From a virus, in IMG/VR virus record IMGVR_UViG_3300009008_000005, positions 116,826 to 180,825 of that record: 64,000 bases of DNA; one strand, given 5' to 3'. The translations under genes and the position numbers were made by a program. Shown one piece after another: positions 3,514-20,163 of the stretch (positions within the stretch are counted from its first letter, which is position 1; each line of letters opens with the position of its first letter). The notes below the pieces were generated by a model that saw nothing but the letters and a program-made list of their open reading frames with translations, had not been told where the DNA came from and ran no database searches.

Positions 3514-4237
3514 GCTGCGGAACCGTTTCTACATCAAGATTGAGTTCGCCTACGCCGATGAACCGGCGAAGACGCACGTCATGAGGAAGCTGTTCTACAC
3601 GTACAGCGGTGCCGTCACGTACCGCACCACGTTGAACAGCTCCGAAGGTGCGCACATGAGACTGCAGGGCGAGAGAGTCATCGTCTCGAAGATCGGGCCG
3701 GTGGAACCCTTGCATAAAAGAGACACGGAGGTGGAGGAGATGCCGGAAGAGCAGCAGAGCACAGGGACGAAGATCTGGACAGGGAAGGCGAAGCACGCAT
3801 GGGGCGAGAGGTCCGTGAACGAGTCCTTCGGCTACCTACTCGGGCAGTGGAAGTTGAAGAGACTGCTGCGGAAGGGGGACACGGCCTACCTGCAGTTCTT
3901 CTCCTCCGACGACACCTGGAAGATCGTCGTGGAGAAGGAGAACGGCAAGTTCGTTCGCATGGGCGTCAAGTGCCCGTTCTTCGAGGGGACCTTCCGATAT
4001 GGCCAGGCCGTCTTCCGCACCCCTTTCACGGACAACGACCCACAGGAAATCCTGGAGCAGCTCGACGACACCCACGCCCTCTACGGACTCGGCAACGGGT
4101 TCACCTGGACCGAGATGGAGGCCGAGGAGGTCGAAGAGGAGGTCGAAGAGGACGCCACGGATGCTACCGAGACCGTCCTGCTCGACGAGGATGACCTCCC
4201 GGAGAATGCGCCTCCACCGGAGCAGCACATCCACTAG
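3506..4237 (+). CDS. Unknown protein with acidic C-terminus (243 aa)
   Basis: Starts inside the end of the previous gene, with GGAGG upstream. Residues 1-70 form a strand-rich N-terminal part and the middle holds FFSSDDTWKIVVEKENGKF. The last 45 residues are almost entirely Glu/Asp. The middle region resembles the small proteins encoded at 4630-6306 (hydrophobic strand, short Asn/Asp-rich loop, F-x-N/D-D-x-L), so it may be a longer member of that family. A terminator follows. Function unknown. Confidence 0.6.
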   Translation: MSKLRNRFYIKIEFAYADEPAKTHVMRKLFYTYSGAVTYRTTLNSSEGAHMRLQGERVIVSKIGPVEPLHKRDTEVEEMPEEQQSTGTKIWTGKAKHAWGERSVNESFGYLLGQWKLKRLLRKGDTAYLQFFSSDDTWKIVVEKENGKFVRMGVKCPFFEGTFRYGQAVFRTPFTDNDPQEILEQLDDTHALYGLGNGFTWTEMEAEEVEEEVEEDATDATETVLLDEDDLPENAPPPEQHIH

Positions 4238-4262: not shown

Positions 4263-4285
4263 AAGGCCCTGCGGGGCCTTTTCTT
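4263..4285 (+). terminator. Factor-independent terminator
   Basis: AAGGCCC (4263-4269), loop TGCG, GGGCCTT (4274-4280), then TTCTT. It ends the 3280-4237 unit. Confidence 0.8.
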
Positions 4286-4294
4286 AGTTCCAGG

Positions 4295-4301
4295 TATAAG
4301 A
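4295..4301 (+). promoter_or_regulatory. TATAAGA phage promoter box
   Basis: CCAGGTATAAGAAAA lies between a terminator and the ATG at 4328. It is the cleanest example of the recurrent box and matches the one at 590 at 14 of 15 positions. Confidence 0.55.
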
Positions 4302-4327
4302 AAAGCAGACAAAAATGGAGGTGACTA

Positions 4328-4633
4328 ATGGGTGAAGTACTGACAACGGCTGCGCAAGTTGAAGCTTTGGTCGCACTCGATCACGCCCCGGATGTGGGGA
4401 TCGGTCGGACTGCCATCGTGGAGCTTGTGCAGAAAGCTAAAGTGTCCGAGGAGCGATTGCAGGTCATCGGGTCCAGCCGGTCCCAGCTCCTCACGTTCAT
4501 CCTGAACCAGGGTAGCTGCTGCCAGGGTCATGATGATTGCATGCACGGATATGAGGAGGCTTCCAACGGGTCCAACTGCAGGGCTTGTTGGCTGGCCTTC
4601 TCCGAACGAAGCCTCGCAAGGAGAGATACATGA
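4328..4633 (+). CDS. Small cysteine-containing unknown protein (101 aa)
   Basis: ATG 4328 follows ATGGAGGTGAC. The first 60 residues are helical; the C-terminal third contains CC, C-x-H and CRAC cysteines that could bind a metal. The stop overlaps the next ATG as ATGA. It is the first gene of a five- or six-gene operon. No family recognised. Confidence 0.6.
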   Translation: MGEVLTTAAQVEALVALDHAPDVGIGRTAIVELVQKAKVSEERLQVIGSSRSQLLTFILNQGSCCQGHDDCMHGYEEASNGSNCRACWLAFSERSLARRDT

Positions 4634-4998
4634 AGATCCAGTACCAGGTCGAGAAGGGAGCCGACAAGCTCGTGGCGTTCCTCGCCGGATGCGTCGGTCA
4701 CGCCTTCGTGAACGGAGATACCAAGAACCAGTCCATCATGGCCATCATCGGAGAGCCGGGGAAGAAGTCCACGTCGATTCACGTGATCAACTCCCAGGGC
4801 GGCAACGGCCCCAAAGAGATCGTGTTCCGTGAGTTCGTGAAGGCCGACAAGGTGGGAGAGTGGAAGTTCATCCTCCAGCCCACGTCCGTCCGGATCGAAT
4901 ACGACGGCAAGGCCGATGCCTGTCCCTACTTCTCGAACGACATCCTGACCAACAGGTTCGTCCTCCAGAACGACCTGAAAATGGCCAGCAGCCAGTAG
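4630..4998 (+). CDS. Phage paralogous family protein A (122 aa)
   Basis: Starts at an ATGA overlap with the upstream gene, after AAGGAGAG. First of four consecutive genes of similar size that share a pattern: an N-terminal helix, a run of strands, then a segment such as FSNDILTNRFVLQNDL near the C-terminus. No database family comes to mind. The tandem arrangement suggests duplication within the phage and divergence, perhaps as adaptor or inhibitor proteins acting on several host targets; that role is a guess. Confidence 0.6.
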   Translation: MKIQYQVEKGADKLVAFLAGCVGHAFVNGDTKNQSIMAIIGEPGKKSTSIHVINSQGGNGPKEIVFREFVKADKVGEWKFILQPTSVRIEYDGKADACPYFSNDILTNRFVLQNDLKMASSQ

Positions 4999-5006
4999 GA
5001 GACAGC

Positions 5007-5432
5007 ATGTCTGACGGCGTCATAGCTGTATCCATTGAAATCCTAACGAAGGAGGGGGTGGAGAAATTCAAGAGGTGGCTGACCATCCGACTGGGCCTCA
5101 TGCTCATGAATGGTGACATCAACACCTTCTCGGAAACCACCTCCTTCCTCTACCCTAGGAAGGAGAAACTGGTCACGGAACCGGAAGAGTACATCACGGA
5201 GCTGCGCCTTATCCGGATGACGGACGATGTGCAGTCCTTCGAAATAAACTACTTCGCACGGCCCAAGGGGATCCGACTGTTCGAATCCAAGTGGTGGTTC
5301 AACATCCTGACCAACAAGGCGTTCCTGGTCATGAACGGGCACCGGAGTAGCAACCACCTCTTCGCCAATGCGGACCTCAAACCCTTCGGCGATAAGGTCT
5401 ATGTACAAGGTCAACTGGAGGCACAAGCATGA
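5007..5432 (+). CDS. Phage paralogous family protein B (141 aa)
   Basis: ATG 5007 follows AGGAGACAGC. Residues 20-40 (FKRWLTIRLGLMLMNGDIN) resemble the N-terminal helix of the next gene (FRRWIAAHLGSAIVAGVM), and the C-terminal segment SNHLFANADLKPFGD resembles NYLFTNDDLSDLADE there. This is good evidence that the two are paralogues. The stop overlaps the next start (ATGA). Function unknown. Confidence 0.65.
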   Translation: MSDGVIAVSIEILTKEGVEKFKRWLTIRLGLMLMNGDINTFSETTSFLYPRKEKLVTEPEEYITELRLIRMTDDVQSFEINYFARPKGIRLFESKWWFNILTNKAFLVMNGHRSSNHLFANADLKPFGDKVYVQGQLEAQA

Positions 5433-5902
5433 AAGACGTGAATCTCGAATATAGAATGCTCGTTCCGGAGACCCGGAAGACATTCCGGCGTTGGATCGCC
5501 GCACATCTGGGATCAGCCATCGTGGCTGGCGTCATGAGGACTCCGAAAGGGAGGTCCGCCCCGATCATTGACGTCACGATCGGGGACTACAGCACGTACA
5601 TCGAGCACCTCAAGGCGTCGAACGACAACGGGCTGGAGAAGATCTCCCTCTCCTTGCTGCACAAGACGGATGAGGTGAAGGCCGGGAGGCAGTCCCACTG
5701 GGATACCCTCTGCGACTGGATGATCCACCTCGGCGAGAAGGAGTGTTACGTCGTGTTCGAGGGCGACGAAACCTGCAACGCCAACTACCTCTTCACGAAC
5801 GACGACCTCTCAGACCTCGCAGACGAGGTGTGGTCCGGTGGGGAGTGCATCACGTTCGGCATCGAGACCACCAAGGAAATCGATGCGGAGACCGTGGCAT
5901 GA
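5429..5902 (+). CDS. Phage paralogous family protein C (157 aa)
   Basis: Third member of the tandem family, starting at an ATGA overlap. It shares the R-W-helix near the N-terminus and the NxxLFxNxDL segment near the C-terminus with the preceding gene. Acidic overall, with no signal peptide or membrane segment, so probably cytoplasmic. Function unknown. Confidence 0.65.
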   Translation: MKDVNLEYRMLVPETRKTFRRWIAAHLGSAIVAGVMRTPKGRSAPIIDVTIGDYSTYIEHLKASNDNGLEKISLSLLHKTDEVKAGRQSHWDTLCDWMIHLGEKECYVVFEGDETCNANYLFTNDDLSDLADEVWSGGECITFGIETTKEIDAETVA

Positions 5903-6306
5903 GCGCCCGGGTCGGGTTCAAGATCAAGAGCCGAGCTGCGGACTTCGGGGACTTCCTCATGAAGGTCATCGGCCAGTTCGTTCAGATCTGCTCCACCTGT
6001 GGAGTGGACCAGGACGGAAGTCCGCAGTTCACCTACTCCGAATCTGATGCAGATGGGATCCGGATGTTCATCCTCACCAGGCTGGAGAAAACCCACTACG
6101 TGATGGGGCACTTCCACGTCGACAAGCTTTCCGGGGTGCTGCACGAACACTGTACGTGGTCCTTCATCAGGAAGGACGGCGTGTGGCACGCTCTGTTCGA
6201 GGGTAACGGGAATGGGAGGACTCCGTTCTACCTCCAGTCCCACACCGAGAAGTGGGCGGATACCTTCGGCCCGATCGAAGAGCCTCGTGATGTCCCTCCT
6301 GAGTAA
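5899..6306 (+). CDS. Phage paralogous family protein D (135 aa)
   Basis: ATG 5899 overlaps the preceding stop (ATGA). It is the most divergent member: the N-terminal helix, the strands around HYVMGHFHVDK and the TPFYLQSHTEKWADT segment sit where the other members have theirs. Two cysteines near residue 30 (CSTC) are extra. Homology to the others is weaker and is inferred from length, order and pattern. Confidence 0.55.
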   Translation: MSARVGFKIKSRAADFGDFLMKVIGQFVQICSTCGVDQDGSPQFTYSESDADGIRMFILTRLEKTHYVMGHFHVDKLSGVLHEHCTWSFIRKDGVWHALFEGNGNGRTPFYLQSHTEKWADTFGPIEEPRDVPPE

Positions 6307-6532
6307 GACCGGGATCGGTAGGTCCAGCGTCTGCGAGAGGGGAAAGAGGTGCTCGGAATGCAAGGGTGATCTGGTCAAGTTCTACACCGGGGACTTCTAT
6401 CTCGGAGACGAGGGGAAGCTCGTGTTCAAGATCTGCTGGAAGTGCCGCTGCGGTAGTGCCTACTACAGCGAGGATGGAGGCAGAGACGCACCGCCCAGGC
6501 TGAAGAGAGCTGCGAAGCTCGTTCTGAAGTAA
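6290..6532 (+). CDS. Small zinc-ribbon protein (80 aa)
   Basis: Cysteines at 15, 21 and 24 (CSEC) and a CWKCRCG cluster near 52-58 make a compact zinc-binding fold. The chosen ATG overlaps the previous gene by 17 nt; a frame start at 6212 is possible but overlaps further. It ends at a strong hairpin. Small zinc ribbons in phages often bind nucleic acids or host proteins; the role here is unknown. Confidence 0.5.
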   Translation: MSLLSKTGIGRSSVCERGKRCSECKGDLVKFYTGDFYLGDEGKLVFKICWKCRCGSAYYSEDGGRDAPPRLKRAAKLVLK

Positions 6533-6534
6533 GA

Positions 6535-6562
6535 AAGAGGGGAGGGGCTTCCCTCCTCTCTT
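6535..6562. terminator. Hairpin between convergent genes
   Basis: Twelve-bp stem (6535-6546 with 6551-6562, loop GCTT, one G-T pair) lies exactly between the stops of a plus and a minus gene. Likely a two-way terminator, although the T tracts are short. Confidence 0.6.
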
Positions 6563-6564
6563 AC

Positions 6565-6837
6565 CTAGCCCTCTTCGATTACTTGTTCAATCTGGTTGAT
6601 CACGACGTCGACTACCAGCCTGTCTATACTGGTCTGCTCGTCTGGCCCAGAATTCTTGTAGGCCTCTGAACATGAGGGGCACAGAACGGCCTTCGCCTCT
6701 CCGTATGGAGTAGCGATGTGCATCTCAAGGAACTCGACGACTGCAGGGTCCTTGTACTCTTCCCTGCAGACTGGACACTCGTGAACACTGAGTGCCTGCC
6801 AAAGTCTCTTACTATCTTCATCGGGCATTGAAATCAC
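6565..6837 (-). CDS. Small four-cysteine zinc protein (90 aa)
   Basis: CPVC at residues 21-24 and CPSC at 53-56 form a probable zinc finger. The frame opens with GTG at 6837, overlapping the upstream stop as GTGA, which suggests translational coupling; an ATG three codons later (6828) is the alternative. The C-terminus is acidic and helical. It is the last gene of a four-gene minus-strand operon headed by the AP2 protein. Function unknown. Confidence 0.5.
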   Translation of the reverse strand: MISMPDEDSKRLWQALSVHECPVCREEYKDPAVVEFLEMHIATPYGEAKAVLCPSCSEAYKNSGPDEQTSIDRLVVDVVINQIEQVIEEG

Positions 6838-7172
6838 AGTCCAGGTAGTTTCCCCACTCCTACAACAGGAGGCTTGATCCTGTCCAGGATATCTTTGATC
6901 TTGTCTATATGCCCCCCATCCATTATGTCGGGAAAGGCGCTAAGGAGGGAACTGTAGTCCTCATCAGCCTTCTGGAGAGCTTGCCGTGCCTTGCCTATCT
7001 CTCCATTGGACACATAGCTCATCGCATCCTCGATGTAACCGCTTATGTCGCTACTGCTGCCCTCGATCTGATCCGTGATCTCAGTAGCACAGTCCTCCAG
7101 ATAATCCTCTAGGTCACTGCTGAGGTCCTCGATGAGGTCCAGCTCCGAGTCCAGGCTTATGTTATCGTCCAT
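6834..7172 (-). CDS. Acidic helical protein (112 aa)
   Basis: Starts with ATG after TGGAGG. The first 70 residues are strongly acidic and predicted helical with leucine/isoleucine heptads (coiled-coil-like), and the C-terminus ends in a short Gly/Pro stretch. No cysteines. Possibly a protein-binding or DNA-mimic protein, on charge alone; no family recognised. Confidence 0.55.
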   Translation of the reverse strand: MDDNISLDSELDLIEDLSSDLEDYLEDCATEITDQIEGSSSDISGYIEDAMSYVSNGEIGKARQALQKADEDYSSLLSAFPDIMDGGHIDKIKDILDRIKPPVVGVGKLPGL

Positions 7173-7193
7173 AATAAACCTCCATAGAACATC

Positions 7194-7496
7194 CTAGGGC
7201 CTGGGGTTGCGTGCCGCAAGTCTCTGCAACCTTGTGCCCTTGCTGAAAACCGTGTCCCCTTCTTTAGGGATGGGCCAGTCTATGTTGAAAGTAACGTCGG
7301 GTGTGACGCATACCGGGTAGCTGTTTGAACCTCGCTCCCCTAGACAGGTGACCTTTGCGTGCGTGATGTAAGGAGTAAATTCAAACTCGATATCTGCAAG
7401 CTGTTGGTCGGTGGCCCGGTCCAACACTGTCAGCTGGATGCCGCCACCCACCCCATTCATGGTGAGGTGGAGGACGACACCCTCAGACTTATACAC
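7194..7496 (-). CDS. Unknown beta-rich protein (100 aa)
   Basis: Opens with GTG at 7496, 8 nt inside the end of the AP2 gene, so it is probably translated by coupling. The sequence is strand-rich, with two cysteines and a basic C-terminus. No motif recognised. Part of the same minus-strand operon. Confidence 0.5.
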   Translation of the reverse strand: MYKSEGVVLHLTMNGVGGGIQLTVLDRATDQQLADIEFEFTPYITHAKVTCLGERGSNSYPVCVTPDVTFNIDWPIPKEGDTVFSKGTRLQRLAARNPRP

Positions 7497-8823
7497 GTAC
7501 GGACTTCTCGGAGACGTGGGCGATCTGGACCAGGAGATCCATGTAGGCCTCCTGCGAAAGCTCAGATGCGTACTTCTTGGAGTAGTCCACGAGCCAGGCA
7601 GAGACCTCCTGCCTGGAGAGCGTCCCGTTGGGGGAGGCGGGTGCAGGTTCGGCGGGAGCCTCGGGCTTCTTGGTGGCCAGGAGAGACGGCTGTACCGCCT
7701 CCACCTTGACAGGCTTACGGGTGGCCGGCTTCTCCTCCAAGGTCATGAGAGCATTCGGCCTACGCTTGGACCAGCGGCGGATCGTGCAGAACTTGGCGGG
7801 CTTCTTCGTGAGGCGAGTCGTGAACTCCATGGCCCAAGTGGGGAGCTTCTCGTACCACCCCTCAGGATCTATGACACCATTGACCTCATCGATCAGTGCA
7901 CCACACCCACTGCAGTGAGTATACGAGCGGCCCCGACCAGAAGTTGCACTGCGCTCGCTCTTGTACCCACAGGGGCAGTCGATGGTGGTTCCCTTACGGG
8001 TCTTCGTGATCTTGGCCTTCTTCCCCTCCAAAGAGAGCAGGAGCTTATGGTGATCCTCAATCTCTTTCTTGCTGTGGTCATAACGGAACGGGCGCTTACG
8101 CAGACGACCGAAGTACTTCGCCAGCATGACGTCGTACCAGAGGCGTCCGGTCTTCGCATCTTTGGCTGCACCCAGGTACAACGTGAAGTTGTCGGTGCTA
8201 AGTCCGAGATCGTCCAGGTGGGTGATGATGATGTGAACGGCGTACTCTCCACGCTCGTTGGGTGCCCTGTTGACTCCCTTGTACCCATGATACTTCTTCT
8301 GGCCCGCAACATCGGGGATGGGGGTGGATACTTCGGTCTTAGGCTCCGGAGAAGCCTTGGCCTCAGCCAGAGTGGACTTGAAAACCTTGGGGTTGAATAT
8401 CGCCATCAGCTCCTCTTCAGGCTTGGCACTGCCGTCGTAGTAGACCCTTCGTCCACAACCTTCGCATCGCCAGTAGTTGAACACAGTCCCCTTCCTAGGG
8501 GCGTGGAAAGTGCACCCGCACTCGCAGGTGACATCGTGAGTACCGTCAAGCCGACCCTTAATCGACGCAGTCCCTTCTTCCGGGAGCATCATGGCCCACA
8601 CGGACTTCTCGACTTCATCCTGTGGATGGTTAGTGTCGTACCTCCCGAGCAGTAGCGCAGCACGGTCCCAAGCCATGGCGGCGTTGGGAGCAGTAAGGAA
8701 ACCACCGAGCGTGATATTGCCCGGCCTGTGAGGGGCACCGATATATGCCCTCCACTTTTTAGATGAGGAATCAAACGTAATACCGTGAAATTCCGGGAAC
8801 TCTTGCCGCTTCACTTCACCCAT
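7489..8823 (-). CDS. Double AP2-like/zinc-ribbon DNA-binding protein (444 aa)
   Basis: Residues 12-66 match the AP2/ERF-type DNA-binding fold (WRAYIG, LGGF, AAMAWDRAA, N at the end). A second, more divergent copy lies at about 178-250 (YAVHIII, LYLGAAKDA, YDVMLAKYFG). Each is followed by a zinc ribbon (cysteines 100/102/104/120/123 and 283/285/304/307). The C-terminus (350-444) is a Pro/Ala linker plus a helical domain. In phages AP2 domains usually accompany homing endonucleases, but I see no HNH or GIY-YIG catalytic motif, so it looks like a pure DNA binder. GGGAGGT precedes the ATG, and a TATAAGA box lies about 40 nt upstream. Confidence 0.65.
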   Translation of the reverse strand: MGEVKRQEFPEFHGITFDSSSKKWRAYIGAPHRPGNITLGGFLTAPNAAMAWDRAALLLGRYDTNHPQDEVEKSVWAMMLPEEGTASIKGRLDGTHDVTCECGCTFHAPRKGTVFNYWRCEGCGRRVYYDGSAKPEEELMAIFNPKVFKSTLAEAKASPEPKTEVSTPIPDVAGQKKYHGYKGVNRAPNERGEYAVHIIITHLDDLGLSTDNFTLYLGAAKDAKTGRLWYDVMLAKYFGRLRKRPFRYDHSKKEIEDHHKLLLSLEGKKAKITKTRKGTTIDCPCGYKSERSATSGRGRSYTHCSGCGALIDEVNGVIDPEGWYEKLPTWAMEFTTRLTKKPAKFCTIRRWSKRRPNALMTLEEKPATRKPVKVEAVQPSLLATKKPEAPAEPAPASPNGTLSRQEVSAWLVDYSKKYASELSQEAYMDLLVQIAHVSEKSVRV

Positions 8824-9350: not shown

Positions 9351-10202
9351 ATGGCCTACGTACTACTGCTCGCCCTAGCACTGGGGGAATTCGGGTCCCC
9401 ACACAATGATCCCGTTGAACTTGCGAGGCACTTCGTAGAGGCAGGCGAGGTCTCCGGTGAAAATCCGTTCCTCCTCGCAGCGGTAGCCATCTATGAATCC
9501 AGGCTAGACAATGATGAGGTCAGCAAGAAGAACGCATGTTGCATGATGCAGGTTCTGGGAGGGCGGTACGGAAATCCCTCTTGCAGTGCGATGCAGAATG
9601 ATCTGTCCCTGTGTGTCCACATTGGGGCGAGAGAACTTTCCGAGTGGAGAGCCTATAGAGGCGCTGAGACCGACGAGAACACCTTATGCCACTACAACTG
9701 TGGGTGTGTGTGCTCCAGTAATTCCCGTAAGATGTATGTCAGCGGAGTACTATGGTGGAGGGACTTCCTGTATGCAGTGGCCACGCACACCCCGAAGTCT
9801 AGAATAACGTGCACGATCCGTATCCAAGAGAAGGAAGGCGTACTAGAAGCTACGGACTCTGCGTATATCTGGAACGAAGCTATAGCCGGACATGACCGGC
9901 CTAAAATTCGGAACTATGAGGAGCACGTGAAGAAAGACTTGAAGCTCAGGCTCAAGTATCGTACATGTAACTTGAAGCATGTCGGAGCCTGGAATGGGAA
10001 GAGATACTTGCACGAGCGCTCTCCGGCCTTCGCATGCCTCACATCTTCAAGGACCTATGCGTGTGAGGAGGAGGTCTACTATGCAAGCCATGACCAGGCG
10101 GTGCAGGTTGCGCAGGAGACCCTTGAGTGGCGTAGAGAAGCGCTACAGAGAATATGGGCTGGAACATTCCTCACATTCCTGGGACTTACAACACAGGGGT
10201 AA
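9351..10202 (+). CDS. Lytic transglycosylase-like peptidoglycan hydrolase (283 aa)
   Basis: Residues 38-100 fit the SLT (lysozyme-like) fold: NPFLLAAVAIYES with candidate catalytic Glu49, then CCMMQV at 63-68 and a later LCHYNCG matching the family's ALxxYNxG motif. The N-terminus is a hydrophobic stretch of about 12 residues that could act as a signal or signal-arrest peptide. Many cysteines suggest disulfides and work outside the cytoplasm. The C-terminal 140 residues are unassigned and may bind the wall. Such enzymes cleave the glycan backbone for lysis. AAGGAGG precedes the ATG. It lies in the accessory region, which suits an endolysin better than a tail enzyme. No holin is obvious. Confidence 0.7.
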   Translation: MAYVLLLALALGEFGSPHNDPVELARHFVEAGEVSGENPFLLAAVAIYESRLDNDEVSKKNACCMMQVLGGRYGNPSCSAMQNDLSLCVHIGARELSEWRAYRGAETDENTLCHYNCGCVCSSNSRKMYVSGVLWWRDFLYAVATHTPKSRITCTIRIQEKEGVLEATDSAYIWNEAIAGHDRPKIRNYEEHVKKDLKLRLKYRTCNLKHVGAWNGKRYLHERSPAFACLTSSRTYACEEEVYYASHDQAVQVAQETLEWRREALQRIWAGTFLTFLGLTTQG

Positions 10203-10865: not shown

Positions 10866-10872
10866 TATAAGA
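10866..10872 (+). promoter_or_regulatory. TATAAGA phage promoter box
   Basis: CTCGTTATAAGAAGATTG lies about 80 nt before the ubiquitin-like gene, giving it its own transcript with a leader of some 70 nt. Confidence 0.45.
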
Positions 10873-10948
10873 AGATTGAATCCTGGGCCACTAGTTGGTG
10901 GTCCGTGTGCACGGATTTGCCATAACTATCCTCTCAAGGAGGGAACAT

Positions 10949-11161
10949 ATGATCTGCAAGGTCATGCGTATCGGCAGCGGGACCCGTGAGGTCGAGATCC
11001 CGGACGGCTCGGCCGTCCGCAACGCCCTGACGGCGGCTCAGTTCGAGACCCGAGGCGCCTCCGTCTCCGTGAATGGCATCGAGGCCACCATGGACACGGC
11101 ACTGCAGGACGGCGACACCGTCAGTCTCGTGGCGAAGGTCGAGGGCGGCACCTCCGTCTAG
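10949..11161 (+). CDS. Ubiquitin-like beta-grasp protein with cleavable tail (70 aa)
   Basis: A single beta-grasp domain (MoaD/ThiS/ubiquitin fold): paired N-terminal strands, a helix around SAVRNALTAAQF, then VNG and LQDGDTVSLVAKV, the conserved penultimate features of MoaD/ThiS proteins. It ends GG-TSV: the diglycine (66-67) is followed by three extra residues, as in ubiquitin precursors. The JAMM protein encoded just downstream could remove that tail. ATG 10949 follows AAGGAGGG. It has its own promoter box and a strong terminator, separate from the E2-JAMM-E1 operon, which would let the modifier be made in excess. It may equal the PRTRC protein C type. The fold assignment is by motif, not by search. 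Confidence 0.75.
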   Translation: MICKVMRIGSGTREVEIPDGSAVRNALTAAQFETRGASVSVNGIEATMDTALQDGDTVSLVAKVEGGTSV

Positions 11162-11199
11162 GGGGACCATACTCGTCTCGCTCCGATGAAGGAACATGT

Positions 11200-11227
11200 G
11201 GGGGAGGGGGGTTCGCCTCCCTCCCCC
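11200..11227 (+). terminator. Strong hairpin after the ubiquitin-like gene
   Basis: Twelve-bp stem (11200-11211 with 11216-11227, loop TTCG), followed by TAAGTTTCTC. It separates the modifier's transcript from the operon downstream. Confidence 0.75.
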
Positions 11228-11304
11228 TAAGTTTCTCCCTAAAAGTATACCCATAAGTGGGATTATCTATATGTGTCTTGGGATGGATGGACAAGGAGGC
11301 AAGA

Positions 11305-12819
11305 ATGCCAGCAGGAGTTCAAGCAACCCGCCTACACGCCGACATGGTGTCGGTCTTGGGGGAACTCTCCTCTGAGATGAATGTAGGCATCCGAGCGGAG
11401 ACGGTGAATCTCTCTCGGTTCTTCTCGCAATTCCCCGGAACGGAGGGCGACAGCGTCAGGCTGTTCTTCCACAACGGGGAGCGTGGAACGCAGCAGGAGT
11501 TCAGCTTCGTCGTGGACGGAACTGAGTGCAAGGTCAAATTCGCCATGGCCCAGCACAATCCGAACCTCTTCGAGGAAGGGGTCGAAACCCAGCTGCGGAT
11601 CCCTGTCGGTGGCGGCGAATCCACAGACCTGATCGGTGTCTACGGAGGGACACAGATCATGTTCGGTGCAGACCTCAACAACCTCTTCACACACCCGGAA
11701 TACATCGAGGGAGATGTGACGGCCAAGGACTTGGCCAAGCACATCCTGAAGAGTGCCCTCTCCGGAATCATGGACAGCATCGAGAACCGTGGGCGGGAGG
11801 AGTTCGCAGACACCCTCATGACCATGTACAGGGCGAGCGTGGCCCTGTGGCGGGAGACCATCACGAACAACGACGCCTCGATCGACAACCACCTGCGCCA
11901 GCTGAGCGAGCTGTACACTCGCAACCAGGCCACTCGGGCGCAGATCAACGCCTTCGACGGCACCATGCAGACCGCACGGGACAAGGCGAAGGAGGAGTAC
12001 GAGAAGCTCGTCCGACTGGTTGGAACCTCCTTGGAGGAAGTCCAGGTCGTCAACCGGCGTCTGCAGCTCCGTACGTCGGAAATGCACATCGAGTACGACG
12101 GGATCGATTACAACATCGGCCGAATCGTGATCGACACCCCCATCCTCGGCAACTCTGGCGAGGTGACAATGTTCAGCTACGACGGCAGGGACCAGAACGG
12201 ATGCGCCCACCCGCACGTCAGCGGTGGTCGGGTCTGCTGGGGAAACGTGGGAGGCACGATCACGGAAGCGCTCTCCACAGGGGAAGTGCTCCAGGCTGTG
12301 TTGGCCATGCTCGCCTACCTCCAGTCGTACAACTCCGAGGATGCCTACACGGACATCCAGAACTGGGGCGATGCCTACGACCGTAACCAGGCCTGTCGTG
12401 AAGACCACAGCACGGATGAGTGCGCTCGCTGCGACAGTGAGGAGTGCCCATATCGGGAGGAGAGCCGACAGGAGTGCTTCGACGACCACACCCGTGACGA
12501 GTGTATCCGCTGCAACTCCTGTCCCCTCGCAAATGAAGCGGCAGAGAACTGCCTACGTGAACTGCTCTCGACCAACACTCTCGGTAGGTGCATGGAAACT
12601 TGCACCGTCAACACGTGCAGATTCTTCCGGAACCCTGTTCGCTGCAGAAACGTCATCGGATCCTGTCCGACTGCTTGCACTGCTGACACCTCGTGCTATC
12701 GACACCCGTCGTATTCTTCGGGTGACCCCGGCGGTGGTGGAAGTTCAGAGATCTCTGTGAGCCGCAACATGAGCATCACCGGAAGCGGTGACCAGTTCGA
12801 CATCGTGAGGAGGGCCTAA
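11305..12819 (+). CDS. E2-like ubiquitin-conjugating protein with coiled coil and Cys-rich tail (504 aa)
   Basis: Around residues 255-375 the protein shows a UBC-like core: strands (YNIGRIVID), then HPH at 302-304 and GGRVCWG with candidate catalytic Cys311. This parallels the HPN...G-x-(V/I)-C of classical E2 enzymes; a helix follows. Residues 1-160 are a strand-rich domain of unknown type and about 165-245 a coiled coil. After the E2 core come more than twenty cysteines (about 375-475) in CxxC-like pairs, possibly metal-bound, then a Gly/Ser linker. An E2 accepts the modifier from E1 and passes it to a target. ATG 11305 has AAGGAGG upstream; the frame start at 11257 has none. The stop shares a base with the next start (TAATG). 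Confidence 0.65.
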   Translation: MPAGVQATRLHADMVSVLGELSSEMNVGIRAETVNLSRFFSQFPGTEGDSVRLFFHNGERGTQQEFSFVVDGTECKVKFAMAQHNPNLFEEGVETQLRIPVGGGESTDLIGVYGGTQIMFGADLNNLFTHPEYIEGDVTAKDLAKHILKSALSGIMDSIENRGREEFADTLMTMYRASVALWRETITNNDASIDNHLRQLSELYTRNQATRAQINAFDGTMQTARDKAKEEYEKLVRLVGTSLEEVQVVNRRLQLRTSEMHIEYDGIDYNIGRIVIDTPILGNSGEVTMFSYDGRDQNGCAHPHVSGGRVCWGNVGGTITEALSTGEVLQAVLAMLAYLQSYNSEDAYTDIQNWGDAYDRNQACREDHSTDECARCDSEECPYREESRQECFDDHTRDECIRCNSCPLANEAAENCLRELLSTNTLGRCMETCTVNTCRFFRNPVRCRNVIGSCPTACTADTSCYRHPSYSSGDPGGGGSSEISVSRNMSITGSGDQFDIVRRA

Positions 12820-14024
12820 TGACGGGTACGACAACAACGAAGCCTACCGGAACCACCAACACGACCGGGAGCCGGGTGAACCCGGACCTGGTCAAGCCTC
12901 ACGTCTATATCATGCCCCGTGCCGATGCCAAGATCTGGCACTGGGTCCGAATGGCGACAGGTGAGGTCTCCGGCCTCGGCCTGGTCGACGTGATCGACGG
13001 ACAGATGGTCGTGTCCGATGTCTTCCTGCCCAAGCAGGAGTGCACCTCGGCGGACACGGACCTGGACCAGCAGGCGGTGGCACAGCTCATGATGGAGCTG
13101 GACAACGAAGGCGTGGACCTGGGGAAGCTCCGGTTCTGGTGGCATAGCCATGCCGACATGGAGGTGTTCTGGAGCGGGACTGACACGGGTACCATGCAGG
13201 AGCTGAGCGGGGGCGACACGTTCCTCCTCTCGATGGTCGTCAACAAGAAGCACGACCGGAAGCTCCGGGTGGACATGTTCAACCCCTTCAACATGATCCT
13301 CGACAACCTCGGGGCCAGCGTCCTCGACCTCTCCGATGAGGAGCTGAAGGAGGAGTGCAAGAAGGCGTTCGACGAGAACGTCTCCGAGGGCTACTCCGGC
13401 TACTACTCTGGGTCGACCCACAACCGCAGCGGCGGACGGTCCTCCACCAATGCCACCCACTCGGTCACCTCCGCCACACGGAGGAAGATTGGGTTTCAGG
13501 CAGGGAAAACGCCCACCTCGCAGATCTCGGTCTGGAATTCCAAGGACGGAGTGTGGGAGGACCACTACACGTACGCCGAGGGGGAGCCGAAGATCGTCAC
13601 GTCGTCGGGTTCGGTCGTCGGAGTAGGTGCGTACCTCTCCAAGGAGGCCGAGGCCATCGCAGAACTCGCCCACGAGGAAGGGTGGGGAAGCTGCATCGAG
13701 CAGCGTGGTGACGAGGACGCCAACGAGGTCGCTCCCATCGAGCCCGAGGAACCCACCGATGAGGACGAGGAGATCACGTACAAGAAGGTGGACGACATCA
13801 CGGACCTGGTCTGCGACGCCTGCGGGAACTACGTGCTGGCCCTCGACCCCGAGGACATGATCACGATGGAGGGTCCCAAGGGCACGAACCCGCTGAAGCG
13901 GCAGGACATCACCCTGTACTGCGCAGACTGCGGCGAGGCACACCACGTGAACGTCCTGATGAAGTACGTCGATGGGGAGTGGATCCCCAAGCAGTGGGTG
14001 GAGGGAATCCATGTCGAAGCCTGA
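12819..14024 (+). CDS. JAMM/MPN metalloprotease (401 aa)
   Basis: Complete JAMM zinc site: Glu49 (GEVSGLG), His109-Ser-His111, then Ser119-x2-Asp122. The family comprises isopeptidases that cut ubiquitin-like proteins from targets or trim their C-termini. Residues 1-25 are a Thr/Ser/Gly-rich tail, about 170-300 a linker region, 300-320 an acidic stretch, and the C-terminus a zinc ribbon (CDAC...YCADC). It overlaps the E2 stop by one base and the E1 start by 14 nt, so the three are one operon. Two jobs are plausible: cleaving TSV from the ubiquitin-like precursor and reversing conjugation. Confidence 0.85.
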   Translation: MTGTTTTKPTGTTNTTGSRVNPDLVKPHVYIMPRADAKIWHWVRMATGEVSGLGLVDVIDGQMVVSDVFLPKQECTSADTDLDQQAVAQLMMELDNEGVDLGKLRFWWHSHADMEVFWSGTDTGTMQELSGGDTFLLSMVVNKKHDRKLRVDMFNPFNMILDNLGASVLDLSDEELKEECKKAFDENVSEGYSGYYSGSTHNRSGGRSSTNATHSVTSATRRKIGFQAGKTPTSQISVWNSKDGVWEDHYTYAEGEPKIVTSSGSVVGVGAYLSKEAEAIAELAHEEGWGSCIEQRGDEDANEVAPIEPEEPTDEDEEITYKKVDDITDLVCDACGNYVLALDPEDMITMEGPKGTNPLKRQDITLYCADCGEAHHVNVLMKYVDGEWIPKQWVEGIHVEA

Positions 14025-14697
14025 GATCGACACCACCATCTACTGGCGGCAGATGGACGTGCTGCCCATGAAGAAGGTCCTCTCGGTCCCCGTCACCGTC
14101 GTCGGTGCGGGGGCCATCGGGAAGGCCATGGTCGAGGTCCTCTCCGGGATGGGGATCAACGACATCACCGTGTTCGATGCGGACAGCGTCGAGCCCCACA
14201 ACCTTCCCAACCAGGGCTACCGGCCCTGCGACGTCGGGAAGCCGAAAGTCGAGGCGCTGGCCGAGATCGTGGAGGCCCTCACGGGATTCAAGATCAAAGG
14301 CATGAACGAGTGGTTCACGGACCAGAAGGTGTCCGAGATCACCGTGTGCGCAGTCGATAGCATGGACACGAGGATGAAGCTCTGGGAGGCCATAGCTCCC
14401 CAGCTCCCGAAGCTCTACATCGACATGCGGATGGGAGCTGAGATCGGGCAGATCTTCTATGTGAACCCGTGGAGTCCCGGCTCCAAGCGGCAGTACGAAG
14501 CGAACCTGTTCCCGAGCGATGAGGCCGTCGAGGCACCATGCACGGAGAGGGCGACCAAGTACTGTGCGACGGGTATCACGTCATTCGCAGCGGGCGGGGT
14601 GGCGAACTACCTCCGTGGTGAGGCGCTTCGTCCGCTCGTGCTGGACTTCAGGTGCGGTCAGGTCATCGATCTTCCGAAGGCCACCGAGAAGCCTTGA
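14011..14697 (+). CDS. ThiF/E1-like activating enzyme (228 aa)
   Basis: Rossmann nucleotide-binding loop GAGAIG at 32-37, acidic DAD at 56-58 and HNLPNQGY at 63-70 are the signature of ThiF/MoeB/E1 enzymes, which adenylate the C-terminal Gly of a beta-grasp protein. Cys177 and Cys185 (PCTERATKYC) are candidates for the thioester or a structural site; the second zinc-binding CxxC pair of MoeB is not seen. ATG 14011 follows GGAGGGAATCC and lies inside the JAMM gene. At 228 aa it is a minimal E1, close in size to PRTRC ThiF proteins. Last gene of the operon. Confidence 0.85.
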   Translation: MSKPEIDTTIYWRQMDVLPMKKVLSVPVTVVGAGAIGKAMVEVLSGMGINDITVFDADSVEPHNLPNQGYRPCDVGKPKVEALAEIVEALTGFKIKGMNEWFTDQKVSEITVCAVDSMDTRMKLWEAIAPQLPKLYIDMRMGAEIGQIFYVNPWSPGSKRQYEANLFPSDEAVEAPCTERATKYCATGITSFAAGGVANYLRGEALRPLVLDFRCGQVIDLPKATEKP

Positions 14698-14710: not shown

Positions 14711-14732
14711 GGGGACCCCTTCGGGGGTCCCC
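14711..14732 (+). terminator. GC hairpin with TTCG loop after the E1-like gene
   Basis: GGGGACCCC and GGGGTCCCC form a 9-bp stem closed by TTCG. There is no T tract, so it may stabilise the message 3-prime end or terminate only weakly. Confidence 0.55.
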
Positions 14733-17577: not shown

Positions 17578-18525
17578 ATGGCGGAGAAGGCAAAAATGCC
17601 AGCCGAGGCTAAGAAGATCGAGATCCCGTTCGACTCCATCGAACTGGACAAGTACGGCCTGCGTAACAGCAGGTCTGCAATTCCCAACACGGACAAGCTC
17701 CGGGCCTCCATCGAGGCGTTCGGTCTGCTCGTCCCAATGGTCGTGTGGAAGCCCCCAGGAAAGGATTCCTACGTCCTGTGCTGCGGGTACCTGCGACACA
17801 AGGCGATCACAGAAATCCGGTCCAAGGATGCAAAGCAGTACGAGACCATCGGAGTCTCCCTGCTGGACGGTGTTCCCCTCAACGACGCACTCTGCGTCAA
17901 CCTCGAAGAGAACATCAAGAGGGAGACCCTCAACCACGCAGACCTCGCAGCCCGCATGTTCCTCCTGAACCACGGGCGCAAGATGAGCGAGACTGCCATC
18001 GCCGACAAGCTCAACGTGTCCCAGGGGTACGTAGCACGCCTCATCGGCGTGCACATGAACTGCATCGACGAAGTGCTCCAGGCTCTCCGTGAAGGCCTCA
18101 TCTCCGTGCAGCGTGCAAAAGAGCTGGCCACCCTGGATCCGGAAGAGCAGCTCACCCACCTGGAGAAGCTGCTAGACCCGGAGAAGGCCGAGGAGTTCCG
18201 GAAGAGGCTGGCCAAGAAGGTCGGGCACTCTCGTCCAGGTATCAAGGTTATCCAGGCGCAGATCAAGCAGCTGGAGAAGTACGAGGGGGACCAGGATGTT
18301 GGCTATCGGCGTGGTGCTCTCGCTGCGCTCCGCTTCTCCTTGGGTACAGCCGAGGAAATACTCCTCTTCCACCCGCCTGAGTCTGCATCAGGGTCTGCCT
18401 TGAAGAAGACCATGAAGAAGCCTGACAAGAAGAAGGTCGCCGAGAAGAAGTTCCCGACCAAGAAGGAAACAAAGAAGAAGTCTGCGAAGAAGAAGAAGCT
18501 GGTCACGAAGAGGAGCAAGTCCTAG
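17578..18525 (+). CDS. ParB-like protein (315 aa)
   Basis: N-terminal ParB/sulfiredoxin fold with box CGYLRHKA at 69-76 (equivalent to GERRxRA) and ENIKR at 111-115, the CTP-binding boxes of ParB. A helix-turn-helix at about 135-157 (ETAIADKLNVSQGYVARLI) follows, then a helical domain and a very Lys-rich tail (about 278-315). ParB proteins bind palindromic parS sites and slide as CTP-gated clamps; KorB relatives repress transcription. No ParA/ParM partner is in the window. ParB-related proteins define PRTRC cassettes, so the conjugation genes upstream may belong with it. TAGGAGGG precedes the ATG. Confidence 0.85.
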   Translation: MAEKAKMPAEAKKIEIPFDSIELDKYGLRNSRSAIPNTDKLRASIEAFGLLVPMVVWKPPGKDSYVLCCGYLRHKAITEIRSKDAKQYETIGVSLLDGVPLNDALCVNLEENIKRETLNHADLAARMFLLNHGRKMSETAIADKLNVSQGYVARLIGVHMNCIDEVLQALREGLISVQRAKELATLDPEEQLTHLEKLLDPEKAEEFRKRLAKKVGHSRPGIKVIQAQIKQLEKYEGDQDVGYRRGALAALRFSLGTAEEILLFHPPESASGSALKKTMKKPDKKKVAEKKFPTKKETKKKSAKKKKLVTKRSKS

Positions 18526-20163
18526 ATGACGCAGCTTGAATCTCTCATTTGTTCCGACTACCCGTTGACCTACGTCATCACGTCGGAAGAAGAGAGGCTC
18601 CTGTTGGAGCTGGACAGGATCCTGAAAGATAACGATATGCACGCTGAGGTGCACGCATGGGACATCGTCAACGGTGTTCGCCCGGTGTACATCCGGGAAG
18701 GCGTACCTCAGTTCGGTGACTCCATCGTCATGGGTCCTGATCCCTCCGCAGGGGTTGAGTGGCTGGGAGAGAGGAACAAGGACACGATCCTTCTGTTCCT
18801 CGACATCCATCGTACATTCGATGACGCCCAGTCCGTTCGTGCTCTTCGGAATGTTCTACAACTACGCCACCACAACGACGTGGCACGCACAGCGATGATC
18901 GTGTCCCCTATCTCCGAGGTTCCTCCAGAACTCCGTAGGCAGGTGGCCGTCATCGACTTCGACCTACCGACCCGCTTGGATATCGCAGAGTACCTCGCAG
19001 TGAAGCAGAAGAAGGCCGAGCTGGGAGACGCACTGGGAAGCAAGCCTGAGGACCTCACTGACATCATCGACGCTTGTAGAGGGCTGACCCTCTACGAGAT
19101 AGAGAATGTACTCGCACGAGCCTACATCGAGGAGGGCAAGGTAAGCCCCGAAATCGTAGTTCGTGAGAAGAAGTCCATCATCAGGTCCAGCCGTTCCCTT
19201 CAGTACTATGACACCAAGGAGTCACTGGAGAACGTCGGTGGTCTAGAGAACATTCACAAATGGTTAGCGCAGCGCAGATTGGCTTTCTCTCCGAAGGCCA
19301 GAGAGTTCGGGTTACCATACCCAAGAGGGATCCTCCTTGTAGGAGTCCCTGGTGGCGGGAAAAGCCTGGTGTGCAAAGCAGTGTGCGCCAGCTGGAAGAT
19401 TCCTCTACTACAGTGGAACGTGGGTGCGTCCTTCGGAAAGTACCTGGGAGAGACTGAAGGTGAGGAGAGGAACGTAGAGAAGACCTCCGAAGCTGTAGCT
19501 CCTTGCGGGTTGTGGGCCGACGAGATCGACAAGGGTCTTGGAGCTTCCGCCGCAGGTGGTGGAGCTACTGACGGTGGAACAGGGGCCCGCATGGTCGGGA
19601 GCTTCCTCACATGGATGGAAGAGAAGACGGAACCTGTCTTCGTCCTCGCCACCTGCAATGCCATTGAAGGTCTAGGGCCGCTTCTACGCCGAGGCAGGTT
19701 CGACGAGATCTTCTTTGTAGATGTACCTAACGAGAATGCTCTTGGACAGATACTTGAGATCCACATCCGACTGAAGGGTAGGGACCCGGAGAAGTTCGAT
19801 ATCCCTCGCCTTGTGGAGAGGTCCTTAGGCCTTGTGGGAGCTGAAGTGAAGAGCGCTATCGAAGATGCACTCTTCCTAGACTTCGAGAAAGGTCAGGAAT
19901 TGTCACAAGAGTCCTTGGAGACATGTCTACTTCGAGTCATTCCGCACTGCATCACACGGAAGGACGAGATAGCGAGGTTGCGAAAATGGGCAGAAGACAA
20001 AGCCCAACCGGCGCAATCAGAGCCTCTGGATTTACAGAGAGCTTTGGACTTGCGAGAGCAGTTGGCCCAACAATCCCAGCAGGGATCACGCAGATCTTTG
20101 GCCCGCCGGGGTCGGGTAAAACGTCGCTTGCCCTCTGGCTCGAAGGCCTCGCCCAAAAAGTAA
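18526..20163 (+). CDS. Ycf46-like AAA+ ATPase (545 aa)
   Basis: Starts directly after the ParB stop (TAGATG). Residues 1-230 form an N-terminal domain of the Ycf46 type. The AAA+ module has Walker A GVPGGGKS at 273-280, Walker B-like LWADEID with Asp332/Glu333, and a sensor ATCN. An arginine-finger region (LLRRGRFDE) follows. AAA+ proteins remodel proteins or complexes using ATP. The last 59 codons overlap the next gene in another frame (178 nt), and the tail is Arg/Lys-rich, unlike a folded domain. The DUF2997-like and Ycf35-like genes downstream support the Ycf46 assignment. Confidence 0.8.
   Translation: MTQLESLICSDYPLTYVITSEEERLLLELDRILKDNDMHAEVHAWDIVNGVRPVYIREGVPQFGDSIVMGPDPSAGVEWLGERNKDTILLFLDIHRTFDDAQSVRALRNVLQLRHHNDVARTAMIVSPISEVPPELRRQVAVIDFDLPTRLDIAEYLAVKQKKAELGDALGSKPEDLTDIIDACRGLTLYEIENVLARAYIEEGKVSPEIVVREKKSIIRSSRSLQYYDTKESLENVGGLENIHKWLAQRRLAFSPKAREFGLPYPRGILLVGVPGGGKSLVCKAVCASWKIPLLQWNVGASFGKYLGETEGEERNVEKTSEAVAPCGLWADEIDKGLGASAAGGGATDGGTGARMVGSFLTWMEEKTEPVFVLATCNAIEGLGPLLRRGRFDEIFFVDVPNENALGQILEIHIRLKGRDPEKFDIPRLVERSLGLVGAEVKSAIEDALFLDFEKGQELSQESLETCLLRVIPHCITRKDEIARLRKWAEDKAQPAQSEPLDLQRALDLREQLAQQSQQGSRRSLARRGRVKRRLPSGSKASPKK

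Follow-up and report, generated by a model that had tools for sequence, protein, structure and literature searches.

A phage-borne gene set for putative reversible ubiquitin-like protein conjugation

The DNA stretch analyzed here (the window) comprises 64,000 nucleotides of IMG/VR virus record IMGVR_UViG_3300009008_000005, namely bases 116826-180825 of the 180,825-bp contig. Its plus strand carries four genes (10949-14697, together termed the module) for a ubiquitin-like modifier, a protein resembling ubiquitin-conjugating enzymes (E2), a JAMM metalloprotease and a protein resembling ubiquitin-activating enzymes (E1). The module probably encodes a reversible ubiquitin-like conjugation system, a kind of machinery most familiar from human cells, that the phage uses during infection. 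This reading draws on the presence of the genes, the fold and motif identity of their products, and their conservation, co-occurrence and co-inheritance, all of which are observed. The minus strand of the window contains helicase genes as well as genes for a terminase large subunit and a tail sheath and a weak capsid match; the last three identify the contig as that of a contractile-tailed phage. The module is located amid non-structural genes; the terminase, capsid and tail sheath genes of the window are on the opposite strand and some distance away.

All four genes and their motifs had been claimed in an earlier reading of the letters (the sequence-only reading), and their positions and motifs held when the open reading frames (ORFs) and the sequence were read again. 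The last three genes overlap, as that reading had said: the E2 stop codon and the JAMM start codon have one base in common, and the JAMM and E1 genes share 14 bases. All four genes form an operon-like block, headed by the modifier gene (Table 1). The E1 and JAMM genes each occur once in the contig.

Table 1. Module genes and nearby features in the window
Feature	Position	Strand	Basis or remark
Ubiquitin-like modifier, 70 aa, beta-grasp	10949..11161	+	Pfam ThiS, profile matches in PDB
E2-like conjugating protein, 504 aa	11305..12819	+	Motif, Foldseek, UQ_con in relatives
JAMM/JAB metalloprotease, 401 aa, C-terminal Cys pairs	12819..14024	+	Conservation, profile, Foldseek
E1-like ThiF-fold adenylating enzyme, 228 aa, single domain	14011..14697	+	Pfam, profile, conservation
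TATAAGAAG, phage promoter-like element	10866..10874	+	83 bases 5' of modifier gene
12-bp hairpin between modifier and E2 genes	11200..11227	+	-32.5 kcal/mol, z -3.5
9-bp hairpin 3' of E1	14711..14732	+	Folding
ParB-like gene, context only	17578..18525	+	Found in 1 of 24 other module-bearing records
AAA+ ATPase, PHROG 8638, context	18526..20163	+	Probably independent of the module

Related loci were found by pattern-plus-tblastn scans for the JAMM gene, and module profiles were then run over them. These scans yielded 68 viral and 10 genome-contig loci bearing a JAMM gene. The profiles place an E1 gene in nearly all of the untruncated viral loci, and another 20 distinct viral loci have the complete four-gene set, as do 3 contigs from bacterial metagenome-assembled genomes (MAGs). 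The complete set claimed for this phage is present and is not peculiar to it; cultured phages also carry distant versions (see below). Mean identity in the alignments of the module proteins is only 10-29%, and the module is judged to be beyond chance because the positions that are kept among such dissimilar relatives are the catalytic residues. In addition, the gene trees of the module correlate with one another (r 0.52-0.76), and none of 2000 permutations reached values as high.

It had been proposed that the four products be compared with the MoaD/ubiquitin, E2, JAB and ThiF families, and these comparisons returned SAMP2, UbcH7, Rpn11 and UBA5, respectively. The modifier was said to be a beta-grasp protein ending in GG-TSV, and this was borne out. 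Its C-terminus is VEGG-TSV, Pfam ThiS matches it at 29.9 bits (cut-off 22.5), and a profile of 27 relatives finds PF1061 (6e-10) and SAMP2 (1e-9) in PDB, so that the protein has the beta-grasp domain and Gly-Gly ending of a ubiquitin-like modifier. At least 90% of the 27 modifiers retain G66 and G67, and a GG pair falls within the last five residues of 24 of the 31 modifier matches, whereas the small ORFs of these loci have one there in only 2.8% of cases. Most modifiers have at least one residue past this pair. Two loci (L008 and L009) encode tandem modifiers with two units per chain and GG ending each unit; these resemble polyubiquitin, and such precursors would need a protease. In four other loci (L004, L012, L021 and L072) no residue follows the GG of the modifier, yet a JAMM gene is present, which suggests that the JAMM protein also acts as a tag remover.

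The JAMM protein contains the zinc-site residues E49, H109-S-H111 and S119-x2-D122 that had been read from its sequence. Across 43 relatives with a mean column identity of 13%, the only invariant positions are E49, H109, H111, S119 and D122. Archaeal Rpn11 is matched by profile (2.5e-12), Rpn11 is matched by the predicted structure in Foldseek (2e-9, prob 1.00), and the matches by profile and fold include ubiquitin-bound Rpn11. The protein thus combines the Glu and H-x-H-x7-S-x2-D signature with the MPN fold of the JAMM/MPN+ family. As a single sequence it falls under the Prok-JAB cut-off, but 18 of 37 relatives do match that model; because a Prok-JAB search of the contig overlooked it, absence according to that model means little.

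The E1-like protein has the GAGAIG and DAD motifs that had led to its assignment, and Pfam ThiF (PF00899) matches it at 80.8 bits against a cut-off of 28.1. A profile of 34 relatives finds UBA5 (1e-19) as well as NEDD8-E1, ThiF and MoeB. Invariant among these relatives are R13, G32, G34, D56, D58, N64, K79, D116, R121, R140 and C177, the last of which sits in a PCTER motif. The protein therefore has the ATP-site residues and the crossover-region cysteine expected of the ThiF/E1 family.

Of the four identities, that of the E2 is the least secure. The protein consists of an N-terminal beta domain, a long helix, an E2 core at about residues 237-370 and a Cys-rich C-terminal tail. Its active-site stretch, HPHVSGGRVC311WGN, agrees with the HPH...C311 that had been noted, and is one residue shorter than the motif of many relatives, HPHVSxxGxxCWGN. 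In eukaryotic E2s the motif is HPN...C, and the spacing from His to Cys in HPHxSxxGxxC equals that of the eukaryotic motif. Met1, C311 and G313 are the invariant columns among 33 relatives. In Foldseek, the best PDB match of the predicted core is UbcH7 (prob 0.99, E 4.5e-3), and the predicted local distance difference test (pLDDT) score is about 90 for the core. As a single sequence the protein has no family match, and Pfam UQ_con matches 2 of the 33 relatives, the better at 6e-4. Taken together, these results point with moderate strength to an E2 (UBC) fold. The Cys-rich tail (residues 355-470, window 12370-12715) contains two similar units, C..DHSTDECARC..CP and C..DHTRDECIRC..CP, and is possibly a zinc-binding or E3-like part.

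The set is larger than had been described. Two adjacent E2-fold genes lie elsewhere in the contig, outside the window, at contig 93079-93624 and 93697-94446 (L088:8080-9447 spans both), and match the E2 family of the window at 1e-13 and 5e-11, respectively. The product of 93697-94446 keeps the cysteine (HPHDDGGGMCMGN), and that of 93079-93624 (HPHADPYGVLDMG) has no Cys at the aligned catalytic place. A Cys-less protein beside E2s is reminiscent of eukaryotes, in which an E2 pairs with a ubiquitin E2 variant (UEV) that lacks the Cys. One elaborate extension of the conjugation reading, which is considered unlikely, is that two active E2s and a dead UEV/Mms2-like partner together assemble chains of the modifier or tags of distinct kinds on targets, with Rpn11-like reversal, thereby steering infection, and that the adjacent AAA+ ATPase might process tagged proteins.

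A different use of the same folds is a sulfur-carrier pathway modelled on the CysO/Mec+ or ThiS/MoaD systems, in which a thiocarboxylate modifier would be charged by the ThiF-like protein and the JAMM would release the product, providing the phage with a sulfur metabolite or a modified base. The modifier does exceed the Pfam ThiS cut-off, the top NCBIfam matches of the single-domain E1 are ThiF, and pairs of ThiS and JAMM are known in sulfur metabolism (PMC1779556). However, the full sets also encode an E2-fold protein whose Cys is invariant, the E1 has an invariant Cys in its PCT motif, the JAMM is closest to protein deubiquitinases, and no rhodanese or sulfurtransferase gene was seen in the block, to which that scan was confined. 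This pathway is accordingly regarded as quite improbable.

In the preferred reading, conjugation, the JAMM would cut off the TSV tail and expose Gly67. The ThiF-type E1 would adenylate Gly67 and then bind the modifier through a thioester at Cys177, as its invariant ATP-site residues and Cys177 suggest. Cys311 of the E2-fold protein would accept the modifier and hand it to amino groups (lysines) of target proteins, with the N-terminal domain, coiled coil and Cys-rich tail of that protein as likely target- or E3-like parts. Finally, the JAMM would reverse the tagging. The chemistry suggested in the sequence-only reading is supported by folds, invariant catalytic residues, tandem precursors and co-inheritance, while the reactions themselves are deduced.

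Several points weigh against conjugation. All of the chemistry and timing of the module is derived from sequence, structure prediction and co-inheritance, and the correlation of the trees may come from shared phage ancestry rather than function. The E2 call leans on fold and motif with weak sequence profiles (0.024; UQ_con in 2 of 33), the E-value of its Foldseek match is modest (4.5e-3), and the mean pLDDT of the whole model is 67. The first His of HPH varies: L005 and L015 have SPT or NPT in its place. Moreover, the JAMM is kept alongside tail-less modifiers in four loci only.

Since the genes around the module in several unrelated phages are of the early or replication type, action during the phase of host takeover and replication is tentatively expected. 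In other phages it is found near genes annotated as primase, uracil-DNA glycosylase, exonuclease or helicase, and PD-(D/E)XK exonuclease-like genes were recognized among the unannotated neighbours by the present reading only. The targets may be host proteins or replication-phase, non-structural phage proteins rather than virion parts, which is proposed with low confidence. In a narrower form of the conjugation reading, only the phage's own proteins (virion or replication) would be modified, so as to time assembly or replication. The lambda tail genes hold a ubiquitin-like protein and a JAMM (PMC1779556), and crAss-like sets are kept near replication genes (primase, uracil-DNA glycosylase, PD-(D/E)XK exonuclease), but the module of this window is neither on the strand of the terminase, capsid and tail sheath genes nor close to them. 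This restriction is possible, though doubtful.

Cultured phages contain divergent forms of the module. In crAss-like and Flavobacterium phages (L006, L007 and L085), genes named as 'thiamine biosynthesis protein' are E1-like and belong to a distant modifier-E2-JAMM-E1 block that adjoins DNA primase and uracil-DNA glycosylase. The JAMM and E1 of these phages are linked solidly to the window's versions, the E2-like protein is linked weakly by profile (hhalign probability 31.5), and their modifier-like protein extends C-terminally past KSG/KSGG. In another divergent group (L025, L030, L031 and L033), modifiers, where found, end in GG without a tail. Xanthomonas phage PhiXhv-16 (L084, PV764603.1), a cultured jumbo phage of 229 kb, encodes a modifier (3781-4203), an E2-like protein (4283-6961) that has HPH...CLGS as well as a tail rich in Cys, and an E1 (6974-7657), under the annotations hypothetical and thiamine biosynthesis. 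Its modifier, which was missed by the modifier profile and recognized by eye, ends exactly in GG, and a search with profile A9 only detected no JAMM, as would be expected if a JAMM is dispensable where there is no tail to cut. Because related sets occur in cultured phages (Bacteroides crAss-like phages, the Flavobacterium FpV4 group and Xanthomonas PhiXhv), the function is directly testable.

Some bacteria probably own the set too. The four-gene block is found in a Candidatus Collierbacteria MAG (L073) and a proteobacterial MAG (L072) with apparently chromosomal neighbours, those of L073 being judged by eye, and these blocks make exchange between bacteria and phages likely. Module-bearing phages also contain a second JAMM-like protein with an HTH motif, recognized by eye (L015:4859-5320) and a second, short E1-like protein (L005:8555-9133 and L015:9545-10123).

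Among solved structures, the modifier is nearest to SAMP2/PF1061 and the JAMM to archaeal and eukaryotic Rpn11, which invites comparison with the archaeal SAMP/UbaA/JAMM1 and Caldiarchaeum ubiquitin-Rpn11 systems. SAMP systems are not known to have an E2, whereas the phage set has an E2-fold protein.

The components and their operon logic are already known in bacteria, where operons for E1, E2, JAB and ubiquitin-like proteins, including those today named ParB-related, ThiF-related cassettes (PRTRC), were described by Iyer, Burroughs and Aravind in 2006 (PMC1779556, Table rows 6a-6e). These operons share with the module the same four components, a mobile-element setting and a nearby ParB gene. 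The module differs in being on a tailed-phage contig, in its small GG-ending ThiS/SAMP2-like modifier, and in being accompanied by additional E2-fold genes in another part of the contig, one of them Cys-less. The PRTRC comparison made in the sequence-only reading thus stands for gene content and fails for the curated NCBIfam PRTRC models: ThiF reaches 44.1 bits against a cut-off of 144.75 and ParB 44.2 against 278.6, and the JAMM, E2 and modifier have no match. The location, a phage contig, is also not the plasmid or integrative and conjugative element of PRTRC, and the JAMM has no relative in PLSDB or INPHARED at E 0.01.

The bacterial ISG15-like system (Bil, BilABCD) likewise has a modifier, E1, E2 and JAMM. 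In Bil, BilA has two ubiquitin-like domains, BilD has an inactive and an active adenylation domain, and BilB has a CEHH motif (PMC11354881), whereas the window encodes a single ubiquitin-like domain, a single E1 domain and an HPH before the Cys. The module does not fit Bil, although tandem ubiquitin-like domains do occur in L008 and L009. Bil is bacterial and its adducts act on phage proteins; the present set belongs to a phage. The type II cyclic oligonucleotide-based antiphage signaling system (CBASS) shares E1 and E2 chemistry and a JAMM through Cap2 and Cap3 (both systems are reviewed in PMC11354881 and PMC12355090). However, Cap2 is a fused E1-E2 that acts on the CD-NTase without a ubiquitin-like protein, and the phage proteins are separate and include one; no CD-NTase was found among the scanned genes beside the module. 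According to these tests, the module is not PRTRC, Bil or CBASS. One phage protein has already been auto-annotated as 'Type II CBASS E2 protein domain-containing'.

It is conceivable that the set instead acts as a decoy or saboteur of conjugation by a Bil or type II CBASS system of the host; the JAMM might strip host conjugates, for instance, or the host E1 or E2 might be sequestered. The E1 weakly matches PADLOC CBASS E1-E2 models (best 3e-13), ubiquitin-like conjugation serves bacteria against phages (PMC10097602), and JAMM proteins, for which expansions are reported in Borgs, have been proposed there as removers of host tags (PMC12660748). A remover would not need a modifier, E1 and E2 that match one another, keep their active sites intact and have trees that correlate, and PhiXhv-16 has no detected JAMM, so that such an anti-defence role appears rather unlikely.

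Phage-encoded pairs of a ubiquitin-like protein and a JAMM are also known in tail genes (PMC1779556), as the lambda/T1 tail assembly proteins I (ubiquitin-like) and K (JAB). Those are structural tail genes without an E1 or E2, and lambda I and K were proposed to work as such a pair. The open-access literature, coverage of which was limited, yielded no account of a complete phage cassette, and a jumbo-phage survey mentions neither JAB nor ThiF. The characterized complete sets of bacteria act against phages; here, phages in many unrelated lineages own the machinery. Studies of how ubiquitin signalling arose can make use of these cases, outside eukaryotes, of tandem modifier precursors and of an E2 homologue that lacks the Cys.

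The ParB and AAA+ genes close to the module probably have no part in it. The order modifier, E2, JAMM, E1, ... ParB, AAA recurs in one other record, G023, whose modifier (L083:6260-6682, recognized by eye) ends in GGC. ParB and AAA were considered as module parts and rejected, being present in only this 1 of 24 other module-bearing records. Because they were not found in the remaining 23 and the AAA gene is common elsewhere, they are taken as lineage context; the AAA gene is frequent in mycobacteriophages, yet the window's JAMM lacks INPHARED relatives. CDC48/PAN-type domains are relatives of this ATPase, which is also weakly related to the antiphage ATPase IetA and lies next to the ParB-like gene. 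Clustering of the neighbours revealed no conserved fifth module gene.

The promoter and terminator claimed for the modifier were upheld in part. Neither a sigma-70 consensus promoter nor a T-run terminator was found at this gene, the start codon of which is preceded by AAGGAGG, while an upstream TATAAGAAG element and a strong hairpin following the gene are present. This hairpin is terminator-like without a T run and was not called by the terminator scan. GTATAAG-like elements occur in the window at 4295, 10866, 14760, 15502 and 17143 (plus strand) and 8862 (minus strand), and elsewhere in the contig. On both strands they lie about 30 bases 5' of start codons, compared to 83 for the modifier, and probably represent the phage's own promoter class. 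TATAAGAAG itself has four copies in 180.8 kb, three of which precede ubiquitin-system genes, namely the modifier and both extra E2-fold genes, each of which has its own element. The idea of a ubiquitin-specific regulon is weakened by the many other genes preceded by GTATAAG-like elements and by the fourth copy, which lies inside a hairpin.

No tRNA genes or Rfam families were found in the window, and a DNA-level search of INPHARED gave no match. At window 9351-10202, 5' of the module, a possible lytic transglycosylase-like gene was recognized by eye only.

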